Of a stretch of DNA of 40,354 bases, positions 21,150-39,221 are shown piece by piece. Origin of the DNA: Desulfobacteraceae bacterium (GTDB lineage Bacteria > Desulfobacterota > Desulfobacteria > Desulfobacterales > RPRI01); the NCBI GenBank assembly GCA_011391695.1, contig JAABQB010000025.1:1-40354 (forward strand), written 5' to 3'. Every line of letters starts with the position of its first letter. The first letter of the stretch is position 1. The translations under genes were made by a program, and so were the position numbers. The notes below the pieces were generated by a model. The model was not told the origin of the DNA and searched no databases. It saw nothing but the letters and a program-made list of their open reading frames with translations.

Positions 21150-21596
21150 ATGAGTTCAAACAAGGAGCTTAGACTGGCTTTGTATATGGCTGCTGTTCTG
21201 TTTGTTGTTGGGACTGTTTGTTATGCAGCCTTTCCGGCCAAAAAACATGAGCAGCCGGTCAGGATCATGTTCAAGACTCTTGCCGGGAAAGTCCTTTTCG
21301 ATCATAAAGCACATACTTCGGAAAAAGGCTACGCTCTTTCATGCCAAGATTGTCACCATCATCCCGAAGGTGATGATGCCTCTGCCAGTGCCTGCGGTGA
21401 ATGTCACATCAATTCGGAAGATAAAGCACCGGCTCCGGAAAAATGCCTTGAATGTCACGATTCCGGAGATTTTGAAGGCGTTGCTTTGACAAAAAAAACC
21501 GACGCATTTCACCAGCAGTGCGATAATTGTCATGAAAAAGCCGATGCCGGTCCCAGGGAAAAAGAGAAAAGATGCAACTGGTGTCATAATATGTAA
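21150..21596 (+). CDS. membrane-anchored or secreted pentaheme cytochrome c (class III-like)
   Basis: This 148-aa protein has five CxxCH heme c motifs, at residues 65-69, 82-86, 99-103, 124-128 and 142-146. The first 26 residues form a signal peptide or uncleaved anchor, so the hemes face the periplasm. Class III cytochromes (c3/c7) usually hold three or four hemes in about 110 aa, so five is above the norm. Scattered HH and FDHKAH residues can supply distal ligands. It is the first gene before rnfC (70-nt gap) on the same strand. This recalls Methanosarcina acetivorans, where the multiheme cytochrome MmcA is encoded with Rnf. It probably exchanges electrons with RnfG. Confidence 0.88.
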   Translation: MSSNKELRLALYMAAVLFVVGTVCYAAFPAKKHEQPVRIMFKTLAGKVLFDHKAHTSEKGYALSCQDCHHHPEGDDASASACGECHINSEDKAPAPEKCLECHDSGDFEGVALTKKTDAFHQQCDNCHEKADAGPREKEKRCNWCHNM

Positions 21597-21666: not shown

Positions 21667-22944
21667 ATGAAAAAACGACCATTCATATGCCTCAGCGAAC
21701 CACATCTTGAATATGACGCTATCGAACCGGGCTGCAAACTTAATGTCATTCCCGTACCGAAGAAAGCAGTTCTTTTTTTCGGTACGGCATATGACAAAAA
21801 AGGGGCTCCTTTATTTAAAGAAGGGGACAGGGTAAAAACAGGGCAGAAACTGATTCTTTATGCCGACTCGGAAGAGTATATTGTTTCCACAGTTACAGGC
21901 GCCATATCTTCTGTTTCTCCATACGCCGGGGATTTTGGGAAATCCTACACATCTGTTCAGATTGACGTTGCTGAAGATGAAACCGATGATGCTTTCGAAA
22001 AGGTATCCGGGGACCTGAGCATTGATAACGTCAGGAACTATCTTTCATCCCTGCCCGGCAACCTGCCCGTAAAATCCTTTTCAGATCCGGACAATAAAAT
22101 TGACACAATAGTTATTGCCGGTGTTGATTCTGATTTGCAGGTTATAACCAGTCAGTATATTGTCAGCTCAAAAATGGAGCATATAATAAAAGGTATAAAA
22201 ATATTGAAATTGATCCCCGGAATCAACAATATAGTTCTTGCGGCAAGAAGAGATTCGCTTCAGGGGTATGGACATATCGGGGCAGAAGTAAAAAATATCG
22301 GCACAAGATATCCCTCGGCTTTCAGGCAGCTTGTTATAAAAGAATCTCTCGGAAAGATACTTCCGGCAGGGAAAAAGCCCGAAGATATCGGGGTCTGTGT
22401 TATTAATGCGGAAGCGGTTGCGTCTTTAGGAAGCGCTTTCCTGCATAACAGAATTCCCACGGATAAAATTATCACATTAATAAATAAAGACGGGACTAAA
22501 AAACTGGTTTCAGCAAGAATGGGAACTCCCCTGGGCGATATTCTCAAAGCCTTCAACATTACCTTAAATCATGGGGACCGCTTGATTCTCGGAGGGCCTA
22601 TGGCCGGTTCTCCCGTATATTCGGAAGATTATCCGGTTCTGTCTGATACCGATGCAATAATGGTTCAGGATAAAAATCAGATACAACCGGTTTCAGATTA
22701 CCCGTGCATAAACTGCGGTGACTGTATAAGAGTATGTCCGGTCAATATTCCCGTGAATATGCTTGTAAGATACCTCGAAGCAAGAATGTACCCTCAGGCC
22801 GCAGAGGAATATGATCTTTATTCCTGCATAGAATGCGGCCTTTGCAGTTATGTTTGCGTATCTAGGATGCCGATATCACAATATATCAGGCTTGCCAAAT
22901 ACGAACTTGCCGAAATAAACAGAGCGGAGGCGGCAAATGCCTAA
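21667..22944 (+). CDS. rnfC: RnfC-like subunit with degenerate NADH/flavin-binding region
   Basis: RnfC is the peripheral cytoplasmic subunit that normally reacts with NAD(H). Here (425 aa) the two ferredoxin-type [4Fe-4S] motifs are intact: cysteines 347/350/353/357 and 387/390/393/397. The RYPSAFRQL segment (214-222) and ILGGPMAGS (308-315) also align with RnfC. The glycine-rich loop (GLGGAGFPT in E. coli RsxC) is replaced by SSLPGNLPV (127-135), and the following ECEPY motif by DSDLQ (154-158). The N-terminal GGIHP motif is also missing. The start at 21667 is chosen because it begins the conserved region; an in-frame ATG at 21532 lies inside the cytochrome gene. It overlaps rnfD by 8 nt. 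Confidence 0.85.
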   Translation: MKKRPFICLSEPHLEYDAIEPGCKLNVIPVPKKAVLFFGTAYDKKGAPLFKEGDRVKTGQKLILYADSEEYIVSTVTGAISSVSPYAGDFGKSYTSVQIDVAEDETDDAFEKVSGDLSIDNVRNYLSSLPGNLPVKSFSDPDNKIDTIVIAGVDSDLQVITSQYIVSSKMEHIIKGIKILKLIPGINNIVLAARRDSLQGYGHIGAEVKNIGTRYPSAFRQLVIKESLGKILPAGKKPEDIGVCVINAEAVASLGSAFLHNRIPTDKIITLINKDGTKKLVSARMGTPLGDILKAFNITLNHGDRLILGGPMAGSPVYSEDYPVLSDTDAIMVQDKNQIQPVSDYPCINCGDCIRVCPVNIPVNMLVRYLEARMYPQAAEEYDLYSCIECGLCSYVCVSRMPISQYIRLAKYELAEINRAEAANA

Positions 22945-23905
22945 TCAGAAAAAATTAATTGTTTCTCATGCACCTTACTGCCATGACGGGAGCAATATTT
23001 CAACCCGTAGCAATAACATCATGCTTGCGGCGCTTCCCGCCGTTCTACATGGTTGTTACTTATATGGGCTGCCTGCTGTCGGGGTCGTTGCTCTTTCCAT
23101 TTCAACTGCAATAATCTGGGAATACCTGATAAACCTCCTGACCAAACGGCCGTCAACAATCGGAGATGGAAATGCGGCGGTGATCGGGATGATGACGGCG
23201 ATGCTTTTTCCTGCAACAACCCCATGGTGGGCGGTCATCACAGGAACATTTGTTGCGATCGTTGTTGGAAAGCAGATATATGGCGGGATCGGCGGAAACC
23301 CCTTCAATCCTGCCTTGATAGGAATTGCTATCCTGATGCTGTCATGGAAAAATATCTTTGATATTGATTATGCTTTATTAAATTATGATTTTAATTTTCC
23401 TGCGGCATATCCGCTTGTCGCTCTGAAGCATTATGGTGCGTCCTCTGTCGAGTCATTCAGTCTTACAGACCTTTTAATGGGAAACCAGACCGGCAGCATA
23501 GGCTCGGCATTCGGGCTTGCCCTTGCTCTCGGCGGATTATATCTCATAATCAGGGGATTTATACGGTGGGAAATATCCTTTTCGTTTCTTGCCGCCCTTA
23601 TAATCACCTCTCTGCTTTTTCAACTTTATGCCCCCGGCAAGTATGCCGGTCCTTTATTCCATCTTTTAACAGGCAACACCCTTCTGGGAGCTTTTTTTCT
23701 TGCTACCGAAGATTCATCGTCTCCTGTCAACTTTATTCCCATGTTAATATACGGGGCCGGCACGGGATTGATGGTTATGCTGATAAGAAATATCGGCGGT
23801 CATGCCGATGGAGTGGTTTTTGCGATTCTTCTGATGAATCTCACGAATCCTCTCATAGACAAGATAAGGCCAAAAGCCATGGGAAAGGTCAACAGCCATG
23901 CGTGA
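22937..23905 (+). CDS. rnfD: RnfD-like membrane subunit lacking the flavinylated threonine
   Basis: RnfD is an integral membrane subunit that usually carries covalent FMN on a threonine in a (S/T)xATPL motif. The 322-aa protein is polytopic and has RnfD blocks KQIYGGIGGNPFNPALIG (112-129), LGAFFLATED (250-259), IRNIGGHADGVVFAILLMN (283-301) and PLIDKIRP. At the motif position, just before LTDLLMGNQTGSIG, it reads FPAAYPLVALK (154-164), with Tyr158 where the FMN-bearing threonine is expected. It overlaps rnfC and rnfG by 8 nt each, so the subunits are translationally coupled. Confidence 0.87.
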   Translation: MPNQKKLIVSHAPYCHDGSNISTRSNNIMLAALPAVLHGCYLYGLPAVGVVALSISTAIIWEYLINLLTKRPSTIGDGNAAVIGMMTAMLFPATTPWWAVITGTFVAIVVGKQIYGGIGGNPFNPALIGIAILMLSWKNIFDIDYALLNYDFNFPAAYPLVALKHYGASSVESFSLTDLLMGNQTGSIGSAFGLALALGGLYLIIRGFIRWEISFSFLAALIITSLLFQLYAPGKYAGPLFHLLTGNTLLGAFFLATEDSSSPVNFIPMLIYGAGTGLMVMLIRNIGGHADGVVFAILLMNLTNPLIDKIRPKAMGKVNSHA

Positions 23906-24488
23906 AATGCTTAAAATGATAATAGTCCTGACCGTCTTATGCTCTTTTTCGGGCGGACTCCTTGCTGCGCTCCGGAATGAAACAATGGAAAAAATTGAAA
24001 ACCAGCAACTTGAGTTTGTCAAAGGGCCGGCAATCCGCAATATTTTAAAAGGATCATCAAATGATCCGATTGCCGACCGCTTCAAAATCAAAGTCGGAGA
24101 AACCGAAAAAAGTTTCTTTGTGGGAAAATTCGACGGAAAAGCGGAAACCGTTGTCTTTGAATCCACAGGAAAGGGTTTTGGCGGAGATTTTGGCATTATG
24201 CTTGGTGTCAATGTTGCAGACGACAAGATCATTGGCATAGGTGTTACCACTCACAGTGAAACACCCGGGATCGGCTCAAGAGCCCAGACAGACCCTCGTT
24301 TCGCAGCTCAATTCAAAGGTCTTCCCCTTGCGGGCGATTTCAAGGTCAAAAGTGAGGGTGGGCAGGTCGATGCCATTTCAGGCGCTACAGTCACCTCAAA
24401 GGGTGTCGCAGGCGCTGTTACTGATGCTGTAAAAACTTACGTAAGCCTGAAACCACAGCTTGCAGAAAAATTGAAGGGATTCAAATAG
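23898..24488 (+). CDS. rnfG: RnfG, periplasmic covalent-FMN subunit
   Basis: RnfG is anchored by one N-terminal helix (here about residues 7-25) and exposes an FMN-binding domain to the periplasm. The 196-aa protein has the FMN-transferase target DAISGATVTS at 158-167, so FMN should be attached to Thr164 by ApbE, which is not encoded in this window. THSETPGIG (118-126) is another family block. It overlaps rnfD by 8 nt and precedes rnfE by 11 nt. With the upstream cytochrome it would form the periplasmic electron-transfer arm. Confidence 0.92.
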   Translation: MREMLKMIIVLTVLCSFSGGLLAALRNETMEKIENQQLEFVKGPAIRNILKGSSNDPIADRFKIKVGETEKSFFVGKFDGKAETVVFESTGKGFGGDFGIMLGVNVADDKIIGIGVTTHSETPGIGSRAQTDPRFAAQFKGLPLAGDFKVKSEGGQVDAISGATVTSKGVAGAVTDAVKTYVSLKPQLAEKLKGFK

Positions 24489-24499
24489 GGAGAAACTTA

Positions 24500-25096
24500 A
24501 TGGCAAAGACCTTAACTCAGGAATTTACAAAAGGATTGTGGGCTGAAATTCCGCCATTCCGGCTTGTGCTCGGCTTATGCCCGATACTTGCAGTTACAAA
24601 ATCGGTTGAGAATGCAATTGGCATGGGCGCTGCCGTTGTTTTTGTTCTTGTAGGCTCAAATGTCCTGGTTTCATTGCTGCGAAAAATTATCCCTTCAAAG
24701 GTAAGGATTGCGTGTTTCATAATTGTTGTTGCGACTTTTGTAACGGTTGTAGAGCTTCTCATGCAGGCCTACACTTACCCGCTCTTTCTGAAACTTGGAA
24801 TATTCATACCTCTCATCGTTGTTAACTGCATTCCGCTCGGCCGAGCCGAAGCGTTTGCATACAAGAATGGAATAATACCTTCCTTTGCGGACGGTCTCGG
24901 CCTTGGAATAGGATATGCGATGTCTTTAACTGCTCTTGGAGCTATCCGGGAGGTTTTCGGAAGCGGAACTTTTTATGGAAACCAGGTTTTCGGGCCTTCT
25001 TTTCAACCTTTTAATTTCATGATAGAAGCGCCCGGCGCATTCGTGTGCTTAGGGCTCATGCTTTGCGTAATGAATTTCGTAGGGAAGAAAGCATGA
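24500..25096 (+). CDS. rnfE: RnfE, membrane subunit with Fe-S cysteine pair
   Basis: RnfE and RnfA are homologous six-helix proteins inserted in opposite orientation. Together they bind an intramembrane [2Fe-2S] cluster. The 198-aa protein keeps both cysteine motifs: LGLCPILAVT (Cys27) and VNCIPLGRAEAFA (Cys110). It follows rnfG by 11 nt with a GGGAGAAA ribosome binding site. A 145-nt gap with heptad repeats separates it from rnfA, which is unusual because these two genes are normally adjacent. Confidence 0.93.
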   Translation: MAKTLTQEFTKGLWAEIPPFRLVLGLCPILAVTKSVENAIGMGAAVVFVLVGSNVLVSLLRKIIPSKVRIACFIIVVATFVTVVELLMQAYTYPLFLKLGIFIPLIVVNCIPLGRAEAFAYKNGIIPSFADGLGLGIGYAMSLTALGAIREVFGSGTFYGNQVFGPSFQPFNFMIEAPGAFVCLGLMLCVMNFVGKKA

Positions 25097-25241: not shown

Positions 25242-25817
25242 ATGGGTGACTATGTTCTGCTTGCCATAAGCTGTGTACTTATAAACAATATATTGCTGAT
25301 GCAATACCTCGGAAATTGCCCTTTCCTTGGAACATCAAAGAAAATGGAGACGGCTGTCGGAATGGCAATGGCCGTTATTTTTGTTCTCGTCCTTGCCGGC
25401 GCCATCACATGGCTGACCGAGATGTTTATTTTAAAAAAATTCGGGCTTGAGTACTTAAGGACAATGTCTTTCATACTCGTTATTGCAGCCCTTGTTCAGT
25501 TCGTGGAAATGTTTTTAAAGAAAAGCATTCCTGCCCTTTATGCGGGACTTGGCATCTTTCTTCCTCTTATTACAACAAACTGCGCAGTTCTGGGAGTATG
25601 CCTGATAAATATAAAGGAAGAATACACCTTCATCGAATGCCTTGTATCTTCTTTTTCCTATTCTGCAGGATTCGGCCTTGCGCTGATACTTTTTGCGGGG
25701 GTACGTGAGCGGATATTGCTTGCAAGAATTCCGAAACCGCTTCAGGATACATCAATAGGGCTTGTCACTGCCGGGCTTCTTTCTCTGGCATTTTTTGCTT
25801 TCAAAGGCATGGCTTGA
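25242..25817 (+). CDS. rnfA: RnfA, membrane subunit with Fe-S cysteine pair
   Basis: RnfA is the partner of RnfE in the membrane core. The 191-aa protein has six predicted helices and both cluster motifs: LGNCPFLGTSKKMETAVGM (Cys26) and TTNCAVLGVCL (Cys114). AGGAG lies 7 nt before the ATG. In most bacteria rnfB follows rnfA or precedes rnfC; here the next gene is rluD on the opposite strand, so this is the last Rnf gene of the locus. Confidence 0.93.
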   Translation: MGDYVLLAISCVLINNILLMQYLGNCPFLGTSKKMETAVGMAMAVIFVLVLAGAITWLTEMFILKKFGLEYLRTMSFILVIAALVQFVEMFLKKSIPALYAGLGIFLPLITTNCAVLGVCLINIKEEYTFIECLVSSFSYSAGFGLALILFAGVRERILLARIPKPLQDTSIGLVTAGLLSLAFFAFKGMA

Positions 25818-37118: not shown

Positions 37119-37661
37119 ATGAAATGGAAAACACAGGATGGCGGATGGAGTCCTTACCTCGCAGGAGCCCTGTTGGGATTGTTGGCCATTGCATCAGTTT
37201 ATGCAACCACCGAGTGGATGGGGAAATCCAACTATCTGGGCGCATCGACTACCTTCGTGCGCGCTGCTGGCCTTCTTGAACGGACTTTTGCTCCGGATCG
37301 AGTAGCAGCAAACGAGTACTTCATAAAGGAGAAGGTTCGCGTCGATTGGCAGTTCATGCTCGTTCTGGGCATCTTCCTGGGGGCACTGATCTCTTCCGCA
37401 ACGGACAGAAGCTTCAAACTGGAGAGTGTTCCTCCGACATGGGAGAAGCGTTTCGGCCCATCCATCGGGAAACGGGCAGTGGGGGCGTTCCTGGGAGGCA
37501 TCGTCGCCATGGTGGGTGCACGAATGGCCGACGGCTGTCCCAGCGGACACGGATTGAGCGGCATGATGCAGCTCTCGGTCAGTTCCTTTGTCGCCCTCGC
37601 GATGTTCTTCAGTGTCGGCGTTCTCGTTGCCGCCCTTGTTTATAGAAGGAGGCTGTCATGA
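37119..37661 (+). CDS. YeeE/YedE-family transporter half, first protein
   Basis: The 180-aa membrane protein carries ADGCPSGHGLSGMMQLS (133-149), the signature of the YeeE/YedE (sulfur transport) family, whose members take up thiosulfate or other sulfur species through conserved cysteines. It has about four to five helices and is a half-size version that pairs with the next gene, as in PmpA/PmpB-like pairs. AAAGGAGG upstream gives a strong ribosome binding site. Its DNA is clearly more G+C-rich than the operons to the left, which suggests transfer. It is the first gene after intI, on the cassette side. Confidence 0.8.
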   Translation: MKWKTQDGGWSPYLAGALLGLLAIASVYATTEWMGKSNYLGASTTFVRAAGLLERTFAPDRVAANEYFIKEKVRVDWQFMLVLGIFLGALISSATDRSFKLESVPPTWEKRFGPSIGKRAVGAFLGGIVAMVGARMADGCPSGHGLSGMMQLSVSSFVALAMFFSVGVLVAALVYRRRLS

Positions 37662-38188
37662 GTATAGATCAGATGCTCGGTCTCATTACGGGGGTATTAT
37701 TCGGCTTCCTGCTGCAGAAGGGTCGCGTTCTGCGCTTCGAGAAACAGGTCGGCGCCATGTTGCTGAATGACATGACGATATTCAAGTTCATGCTTTCCGC
37801 CATATTGGTCGGCATGGTCGGGATAGCTCTGCTCACGGATGCAGGGATTATAACCTTAAGCCACAAACCGATGAACCTCGGCGCCGTGCTTCTGGGAGGG
37901 GCCCTGTTCGGAACTGGATGGGCAGTGATGGGGTTCTGTCCGGGCACGTCGATCGGCGCTCTGGGCGAAGGGCGCTGGCATGCCTTGTTCGCCGTTGCGG
38001 GAATGGTAGCAGGGGCCGCACTCTACGCGGAGCTCTTTCCCTTCATCAAATCGACGGTTCTCGCGTGGAAAGACCTCGGCAAGATAGGGTTACCGGAAGT
38101 CCTTGGAGTCTCACCATGGGTCATAATTCCTTTCTTCTGGGCCGGAACGATCTCCTTGTTCTTTTGGTTTGAGAAAAAGGGCCTCTAA
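37658..38188 (+). CDS. YeeE/YedE-family transporter half, second protein
   Basis: The 176-aa protein has about five membrane helices and the second YeeE/YedE half-signature GFCPGTSIGALGEGRW (87-102 or so), with one conserved cysteine. It overlaps the preceding gene by 4 nt (ATGA), so the two are co-translated and probably assemble into one transporter. Substrate is likely a sulfur compound; this is inferred from the family. The stop codon TAA falls inside the R'' box of the first attC. Confidence 0.8.
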   Translation: MSIDQMLGLITGVLFGFLLQKGRVLRFEKQVGAMLLNDMTIFKFMLSAILVGMVGIALLTDAGIITLSHKPMNLGAVLLGGALFGTGWAVMGFCPGTSIGALGEGRWHALFAVAGMVAGAALYAELFPFIKSTVLAWKDLGKIGLPEVLGVSPWVIIPFFWAGTISLFFWFEKKGL

Positions 38189-38339: not shown

Positions 38340-39221
38340 ATGATTGATACAGGACTTAAGGGAAAAACGGTAATCGTGACCGGTGCCAATCATGGGATTG
38401 GTGCTGCTATAGCCATCGCTTTTGCCCGTGAAGGGGCCAGGGTCTTAATTACCTTTTTACGACAATCACCGGAGCTGTATGGAGAAACCCAGGCGAATGT
38501 GGAGAGCGCAACGACCCCGGGGAGAGCATATTATTGCCGTGAGATCGGACAATCTGCAGATCTGGTAGCGGAAAAGATACAGGCTTTGGGTGGCGAATAC
38601 ATAATATGGGAAGCGGATTTGTCTGATCCTGACATGATTTCAAAGCTGTTTGACCAAGCGGAGAAAAGATGGGGGGCGGTTGATGTCATTGTGAACAATG
38701 CCGCATTCGCTGCCCCTGATACCTTTCTGCCCCAACCTGTATTAGACAGAGATCCCGTCTTTTCCGATGAATATTTTCTCAAACCATTGTCCGCCCAGAC
38801 ACATGATGCGCATTTTCATGTCAATAGCAGAGCAGTTGCTCTTATGATGGCGGAATATGCAAAACGCCATATCGAGCGTCATGCTCAGTGGGGCCGGATT
38901 ATCAATATCACAACGGATGGCGCTCGATGTCATCCTTCTAGCGTTTCTTATGGCGCCAGTAAATTCGCCATTGAAAGCTATACGCGTTCAGCCGCAACCG
39001 AACTAGGCCCTTATGGGATAACAGTTAATGTTATTTCACCGGGTGCCGTGCAAACCGGCTGGATTCCAGCCGAATTGGAAAAAGAAATTGCCGCCACATA
39101 TCCACTCCGGCGAATCGGACAGCCGGAAGACATCGCGAAAGCGGTTACCTTTTTTGCATCAGATCAAGCTGAATGGATCACGGGACAAGTGCTGCAGGTC
39201 GGTGGTGGAAATCGCATGTGA
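38340..39221 (+). CDS. short-chain dehydrogenase/reductase (cassette gene)
   Basis: The 293-aa protein is a classical SDR. TGANHGIG (14-21) binds the NAD(P) cofactor, NNAA (119-122) stabilises the fold, and Tyr204-x3-Lys208 (YGASK) forms the active site. The usual catalytic serine position reads NITTDG, so threonine may replace it. The C-terminal VISPGAVQTGWIP and GQVLQVGGGNRM are standard. The substrate is unknown; a ketoacyl-type reductase is one option. AAAGGAA is the ribosome binding site. It lies between attC1 and attC2 and is the sole gene of its cassette. Confidence 0.85.
   Translation: MIDTGLKGKTVIVTGANHGIGAAIAIAFAREGARVLITFLRQSPELYGETQANVESATTPGRAYYCREIGQSADLVAEKIQALGGEYIIWEADLSDPDMISKLFDQAEKRWGAVDVIVNNAAFAAPDTFLPQPVLDRDPVFSDEYFLKPLSAQTHDAHFHVNSRAVALMMAEYAKRHIERHAQWGRIINITTDGARCHPSSVSYGASKFAIESYTRSAATELGPYGITVNVISPGAVQTGWIPAELEKEIAATYPLRRIGQPEDIAKAVTFFASDQAEWITGQVLQVGGGNRM

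Follow-up and report, generated by a model that had tools for sequence, protein, structure and literature searches.

Tyrosine in place of the flavin-carrying threonine of RnfD in a cytochrome-associated Rnf cluster of Desulfobacterota: evidence for a clade-wide change and its possible meaning for electron flow

Canonical RnfD carries FMN on the threonine of an (S/T)xATPL motif, which reads SQATPL in E. coli RsxD. The rnf cluster discussed here lies within a 40,354-nucleotide stretch of DNA from a Desulfobacteraceae bacterium (contig JAABQB010000025.1; hereafter the window), and an initial annotation proposed that tyrosine takes the place of this threonine in its RnfD. This raises the question of whether such an RnfD can still hold its flavin and, if it cannot, which route electrons would take through the complex. 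In the canonical complex the path is described as leading from RnfB via the RnfA/E metal centre, RnfG-FMN, RnfD-FMN, riboflavin, the RnfC clusters and RnfC-FMN to NAD (PMC9588780, PMC12174285).

The rnfD gene (22937-23905, + strand) codes for a protein of 322 aa and was recognized from the ORF list, a profile match and the model fold. Its product matches TIGR01946 with 248 bits against a cut-off of 207.05 and the Pfam family PF03116 with 302 bits. An AF2 model (pLDDT 76, pTM 0.80) has the RnfD/NqrB fold, its best matches being RnfD and NqrB chains at Z 28-34.5, including 8ahx_D (Z 34.5) and 9eri_D (Z 33.7). Codon 158 is TAT (23408-23410, + strand), in a PAAYPL context upstream of SLTDLLMGNQTGSIG, and in HMMER alignments to solved RnfD and NqrB chains Tyr158 stands opposite the FMN-carrying threonine (Thr153 in C. 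tetanomorphum), thus bearing out the proposed exchange. The covalent FMN-threonine of canonical Rnf is therefore absent from this protein. The proline after Tyr158 is invariant among 19 close relatives, which makes the register of the alignment firm, and the agreement of separate alignments, including those to solved chains and to close relatives, rules out an alignment slip. An assembly or sequencing error is likewise ruled out, as tyrosine is found at this site in the relatives L003, L004 and L005 and in 52 of the 76 distinct sequences of the clade described below. Tyr158 also aligns with the engineered tyrosine of PDB 9ud3, a laboratory mutant (NqrB-T236Y) of V. cholerae that is among the fold matches of the model. 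It is the same exchange at the same site, but made by design in NQR; we know this entry from its title and chain sequence, and our literature search found no publication on it.

The neighboring rnfG (23898-24488, + strand; 196 aa) belongs to an NCBIfam family named after DVU2794 (NF045876, 254 bits against a cut-off of 205). Its SGAT flavinylation motif (24378-24389, + strand; Thr164, hand-counted) is intact within DAISGATVTS, as the initial annotation had stated, and the two sequences together support its suggestion that one covalent flavin would be left in the complex. Loss of the flavin transferase was considered and ruled out. The genome of the window (2.8 Mb in 116 contigs) has one ApbE and, on contig C52, a complete nqr operon (subunits named by inspection) whose NqrB keeps SGATPL, so the tyrosine in RnfD is not explained by missing flavinylation machinery. 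The NqrA of this operon (L204:7958-9298, - strand) ends in two CxxCxxC motifs of the 4Fe-4S type, although NqrA is reported to carry no redox cofactor (PMC12174285).

RnfD loci for comparison were gathered from the named relatives of the window protein, which are Desulfobacterales and other Desulfobacterota, and from genome searches in relatives, class and phylum. The class search gave a match in 227 of 241 genomes and the phylum search in 140 of 394, and part of these were sampled, with stretches chosen by hand for the breadth of the family. This yielded 144 distinct RnfD/NqrB ORFs, and the counts below refer to 142 of them, leaving out NqrB (L001) and a partial sequence (L024). We divided these into an FMN type and a no-FMN type by the presence of Arg130 (C. 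tetanomorphum numbering), so that the figures for this arginine (66/66 and 0/76) hold by construction. Thr153 is present in all 66 sequences of the FMN type, but in only 2 of the 76 of the no-FMN type, where the site holds Tyr (52), Pro (5), Ala (4), His (3), Glu (3), Ser (2), Phe (2), Thr (2), Asp (2) or Asn (1). The initial annotation, although correct on the exchange itself, is on this comparison too narrow: the change extends across a clade, further residues of the FMN pocket are gone, and the FMN/NAD motifs of RnfC are lost as well.

It would be conceivable that FMN has moved to another residue of RnfD. An alternative Ser or Thr in the FMN-accepting position, which would have spoken against the initial annotation, was looked for in the alignment and none was found. 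The columns of Ser169, Ser175 and Ser190 offer some support, with Ser or Thr in 46 to 54% of the sequences from the clade, but no Ser/Thr column of the linker is conserved; the maximum is 61%, in a column where the window has Ala. A nearby replacement is thus ruled out, and a shifted attachment in general appears extremely improbable.

The pocket itself has changed along with the threonine. In C. tetanomorphum RnfD, Arg130, Glu185 and Ser284 surround the isoalloxazine ring of the FMN on Thr153, Ser284 lying near N5, while Asn90 is on a proposed ion path near the FMN, and Asn124 and Asp248 are at the riboflavin, the latter at a riboflavin/ion position (PMC9588780). The residue letters named there agree with the numbering of the chain used here. 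At the FMN site, the window RnfD has Ile130 (23324-23326, + strand) for Arg130, Ser190 (23504-23506, + strand) for Glu185 and Val294 (23816-23818, + strand) for Ser284. At the riboflavin site, Asn124 (23306-23308, + strand) is kept and Glu258 (23708-23710, + strand) preserves the acid of position 248. The same division runs through the family. Glu185 is found in 66/66 sequences of the FMN type and 2/76 of the no-FMN type, and Arg130 gives way in the latter to bulky or hydrophobic residues (Ile, Trp, Tyr, Leu, Val, Met), whereas Asn124 is retained in 65/76 and position 248 is Glu in 60 and Asp in 16 of the 76. When all alignment columns are ranked by how well they distinguish the two groups, Glu185, Ser284 and Asn90 are among the top 14 of 309, and the riboflavin residues Asn124 and Asp248 rank 257 and 62. 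With positions 130 and 153 left out, positions 185, 284 and 90 rank 10, 4 and 12 of 307 (P about 5e-5 that three named positions would all rank 12 or better, a figure that serves as a guide only because the columns are not independent). Within the no-FMN clade, position 153 has undergone 16 changes or more, and Asn124 and position 248 show 11 and 12, compared to no changes at any of the three in the FMN type; the two riboflavin positions are thus under weaker constraint here as well.

A simple untethering, in which FMN stays in RnfD bound non-covalently, would agree with the well-kept fold of the model (Z 34.5 to 8ahx_D and 33.7 to 9eri_D) and with the occurrence of such flavins in related complexes. 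Mere loss of the tether, however, would not be expected to remove the equivalents of Arg130, Glu185 and Ser284 together with the threonine, nor does it sit well with the free drift of the site through 16 or more changes, and we regard it as very unlikely. The drift at position 153 looks like released constraint, and not like the swap of one nucleophile for another. We infer that the window RnfD lacks FMN, and the sequence comparison makes cofactor loss in the clade as a whole well supported.

In a maximum-likelihood tree, 75 rows without Arg130 fall on one side of a single branch (SH-aLRT 98). The tree was made by a quick method from an alignment in which the linker and positions 130 and 248 were masked; it is unrooted, has several long rows, omits L024 and L005, keeps the NqrB (L001) and includes C. 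tetanomorphum as an addition. Two sequences inside the no-FMN clade, L145 and L181, have Thr at the site without Arg130 and Glu185, and were counted as no-FMN type. Because the tree is unrooted, a single change fits either direction, and the ancestor could have lacked FMN, which the other branch and NqrB would then have gained. This history is improbable in our estimate, as the sole NqrB included, which has both Thr and Arg, lies on the FMN side and the free drift resembles released constraint, though neither point decides the root. It concerns history only and is compatible with the explanation favored below.

The other genes of the cluster show where further stations of the path are kept or lost. 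In the window the order is cytochrome, rnfC, rnfD, rnfG, rnfE (24500-25096, + strand) and rnfA (25242-25817, + strand), the last two identified by profile matches. For rnfC (listed as an ORF from 21532), the probable start is the ATG at 21667, giving 21667-22944 on the + strand. Its product lacks both GxGGAxFP, at whose place it reads YLSSLPGNLP (22039-22068, + strand), and ECEP, with DSDLQ (22126-22140, + strand) at the place of canonical ECEPY (coordinates of both hand-counted), and it keeps two 4Fe-4S motifs. Consistent with this, its match to TIGR01945 (198 bits) is below the cut-off of 246 and the Nuo51 FMN-binding profile is matched only from position 21 on; the model (pLDDT 83, best match 8ahx_C) keeps the RnfC/NqrA fold. 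Gene-order counts used groups of 67 and 77, since NqrB (as L204) and L024 were kept, and drew in addition on longer flanking stretches of 20 FMN-type loci. GxGGAxFP was found in 0 of 73 RnfC proteins of the no-FMN type compared to 56 of 60 of the FMN type, and E(C/F)E(P/S) in 0 of 73 compared to 59 of 60 (one of the 60 being NqrA), whereas all 73 of the no-FMN type retain two CxxCxxC motifs. Three FMN-type loci (L153, L156 and L157) have an RnfC without GxGGAxFP but with EFEP and their nearest RnfG match about 3.7-4.1 kb away; they possibly represent a third Rnf subtype. The flavin motif of RnfG is kept in 72/76 of the no-FMN type; L010 and L121 have SGAS in place of SGAT. By regular expression, the cysteine motifs of RnfA and RnfE were found in 48/49 loci of the no-FMN type and 37/48 of the FMN type, NqrB and loci without exactly two RnfA/E ORFs being left out. 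In view of the FMN-type figure, we claim retention of these motifs for the no-FMN clade only.

The first gene of the cluster (21150-21596, + strand) codes for a multiheme c-type cytochrome of 148 aa with five CxxCH motifs and an N-terminal hydrophobic segment, suggesting a periplasmic location. It matches the Cytochrome_C7 profile with 30.2 bits (cut-off 24.8), and TmcA, HmcA and CytC7 profiles weakly and below cut-off. Defined as an ORF with at least three CxxCH on the same strand and within 4.5 kb upstream, a multiheme ORF accompanies 39 of 45 evaluable no-FMN loci and none of 46 of the FMN type. The link is not universal, since six evaluable loci of the clade (L128, L129, L136, L145, L149 and L161) are without it. 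One locus, L124, combines a decaheme cytochrome, rnfCDGEAB and an ApbE-like gene, which is the layout of D. alaskensis; it has Asp at the RnfD site and an RnfC without FMN/NAD motifs.

RnfB is absent from the window's rnf cluster, because the gene following rnfA is on the minus strand, and RnfB-like fusions lie on other contigs. A search of the cluster for an NqrF-like ORF gave none. In many relatives a large RnfB of about 700 aa adjoins rnfA. Evaluable loci of the no-FMN type showed an RnfB in 31 of 42 cases, with 689-736 aa in 26 of them; for the FMN type it was 42 of 44, all with 233-430 aa. Pfam domains of the fusion are FeS, Fer4, Fer4_20 and Pyr_redox_2. Apart from the rnf cluster, the window's genome encodes two proteins, 692 and 694 aa long, in which an RnfB-like part is joined to a GltD-like NAD(P)H oxidoreductase. 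On contig C53 (L202:3180-8782), genes for NuoE-like, NuoF-like, RnfB-GltD fusion (692 aa) and RseC-like proteins stand in a row. The second fusion (694 aa) stands alone on contig C26 (L203:5593-7677, - strand), near a gene that we take to be MscL-like. The fusion in L202 may supply the missing RnfB, and that the partner of the window's cluster is one of these two copies is a guess. Elsewhere in the window are two adjoining small membrane proteins (37119-38188), presumably resembling YeeE/YedE-type transporters, and a short-chain dehydrogenase-like ORF (38340-39221).

Parts of this picture are already in print. For the 'D. toluolica Tol2-type' Rnf, the published description gives a large RnfB that binds NAD, an RnfC devoid of NADH domains and a gene for a cytochrome, and a different mode of action is said to await verification; in D. 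multivorans, both Rnf1 and Rnf2 are reported as produced, and of the six Rnf2 subunits five could be detected in every condition tested (PMC5109826). The published positions of rnf1 (3.09 Mbp) and rnf2 (3.11 Mbp) in that organism (PMC5109826) match those of a Thr-type RnfD (3.099 Mbp) and a Tyr-type RnfD (3.118 Mbp) in genome G018, which appears to be D. multivorans. The clade resembles Tol2-type Rnf2 in its large RnfB with NAD-binding sites, RnfC without NADH-oxidoreductase domains and small cytochrome gene, and the window shares an RnfC with two 4Fe-4S motifs and no NADH site together with the cytochrome gene at 21150-21596. It differs in that rnfB is not beside rnfA, and the flavin of RnfD is not mentioned in the part of the Tol2 account compared here (PMC5109826). 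Thus, the peculiarities of RnfB and RnfC are known from 'Tol2-type' Rnf2, and none of the passages covered by our literature search mentions that RnfD has lost its site in this clade; the search extended to the partial text of PMC5109826, with the original Tol2 genome paper (its reference 49) and supplements outside its scope.

Compared to canonical Rnf (C. tetanomorphum 7zc6, A. woodii 9eri and A. vinelandii 8ahx), the window has the same RnfD and RnfC folds, RnfG flavin site, RnfAE and gene order CDGEA, but its RnfD lacks the FMN-threonine and pocket, its RnfC lacks the FMN/NAD motifs, no rnfB adjoins and a cytochrome gene is added. Na+-NQR is similar in that the RnfC-like NqrA has lost the FMN/NAD site and NAD(P)H chemistry is at the input end; its NqrB, however, keeps the FMN-threonine and its acceptor is quinone instead of a cytochrome. 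The Rnf of Methanosarcina acetivorans, as published, likewise has a cotranscribed cytochrome and does not use NAD(P), and RnfG-FMN is proposed to feed the c cytochrome (PMC4023990), but it is archaeal and linked to methanophenazine. According to one account, NqrB and RnfD share a conserved FMN site, and two-subunit Nqr/Rnf-like systems are without it (PMC11334425). These systems share with the window an RnfD/NqrB homologue without the FMN-threonine, and one-way electron export was proposed for them; they differ in having two subunits only and an NAD domain fused to the membrane subunit (PMC11334425). In many Desulfovibrionaceae, rnfB is reported to be replaced by a gene for an FAD-dependent oxidoreductase and a cytochrome recruited (PMC11434368), and the idea that the cytochrome connects cytoplasmic NAD(P)H/ferredoxin to the periplasmic pool is also found in print (PMC4287179).

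Our preferred explanation, which we hold to be probable from the sequence evidence, is that the window cluster represents a cytochrome-linked Rnf variant of Desulfobacterota ('Tol2-type'/Rnf2) with a dismantled return arm and electron flow between RnfB and the cytochrome. Without FMN in RnfD, the route from RnfG-FMN via RnfD-FMN, riboflavin and RnfC to NAD would be cut. The two missing stations, RnfD-FMN and RnfC-FMN/NAD, would both belong to the return arm, and the outward arm would be intact. On the simplest reading, electrons would then move, in either direction, between the cytoplasmic RnfB side and the periplasmic multiheme cytochrome via the 2Fe-2S cluster of RnfA/RnfE and the FMN of RnfG, with a single crossing of the membrane. 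Input on the RnfB side may be ferredoxin, or NAD(P)H via the RnfB-GltD fusion; NAD(P)H chemistry would have moved to RnfB in most loci of the clade with an RnfB found, as that of NQR resides in NqrF. RnfD, with its probable riboflavin site, may stay as an ion-translocating or structural subunit and RnfC as an iron-sulfur cap or a docking site for a further partner. The mechanism is inferred, and the pump probably does a job other than that of textbook Rnf.

The retention of the RnfC clusters in 73/73 and of most riboflavin residues nevertheless hints that the RnfC/RnfD arm still carries electrons. RnfG-FMN could enter or sample the emptied pocket of RnfD and hand electrons directly to riboflavin, from where they would pass through the 4Fe-4S clusters of RnfC to a cytoplasmic acceptor other than NAD. 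Asn124 in 65/76 and an acid at position 248 in 76/76 agree with such a hand-over, and a similar proposal exists for the two-subunit complexes without the NqrB/RnfD threonine (PMC11334425). Since D. alaskensis can, in addition, do without dhcA under most of the conditions tested, we keep this hand-over as the main rival, though an unlikely one: Arg130 has turned bulky or hydrophobic, no acceptor-binding site is recognised on RnfC, and the cytochrome gene in 39/45 loci would be left unexplained.

Going beyond the window, the reading of a one-crossing Rnf with a dismantled return arm can be extended, tentatively and with somewhat less than even confidence, to the 'Rnf' of Desulfobacterota, and operon layout and RnfG family make it probable that the well-studied Desulfovibrio complex belongs here too. 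This 'Rnf' would then transfer electrons between ferredoxin or NAD(P)H and a periplasmic cytochrome c, with one membrane crossing and without the arm leading to NAD. Energy models of sulfate reducers take Rnf as a ferredoxin:NAD+ pump (PMC4215793, PMC4841214, PMC10553843, PMC5109826). If RnfD has no FMN and RnfC no NAD site, this assignment fails for the clade, and if the same is true across Desulfobacterota, the role is wrong in these models. Experiments with D. alaskensis vesicles on ion transport coupled to electron transfer from ferredoxin to NAD+ were unsuccessful (PMC4841214); a single crossing would explain this, although negative results have many causes and D. alaskensis is compared here via its layout. 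Reduced FMN in RnfD/NqrB has been proposed as the gate of the ion channel (PMC10643135, PMC9588780). If our reading is true, FMN in RnfD would not be needed for a working machine of the Rnf type, and with both sites missing the clade would be a natural test case for the coupling mechanism of Rnf and NQR.
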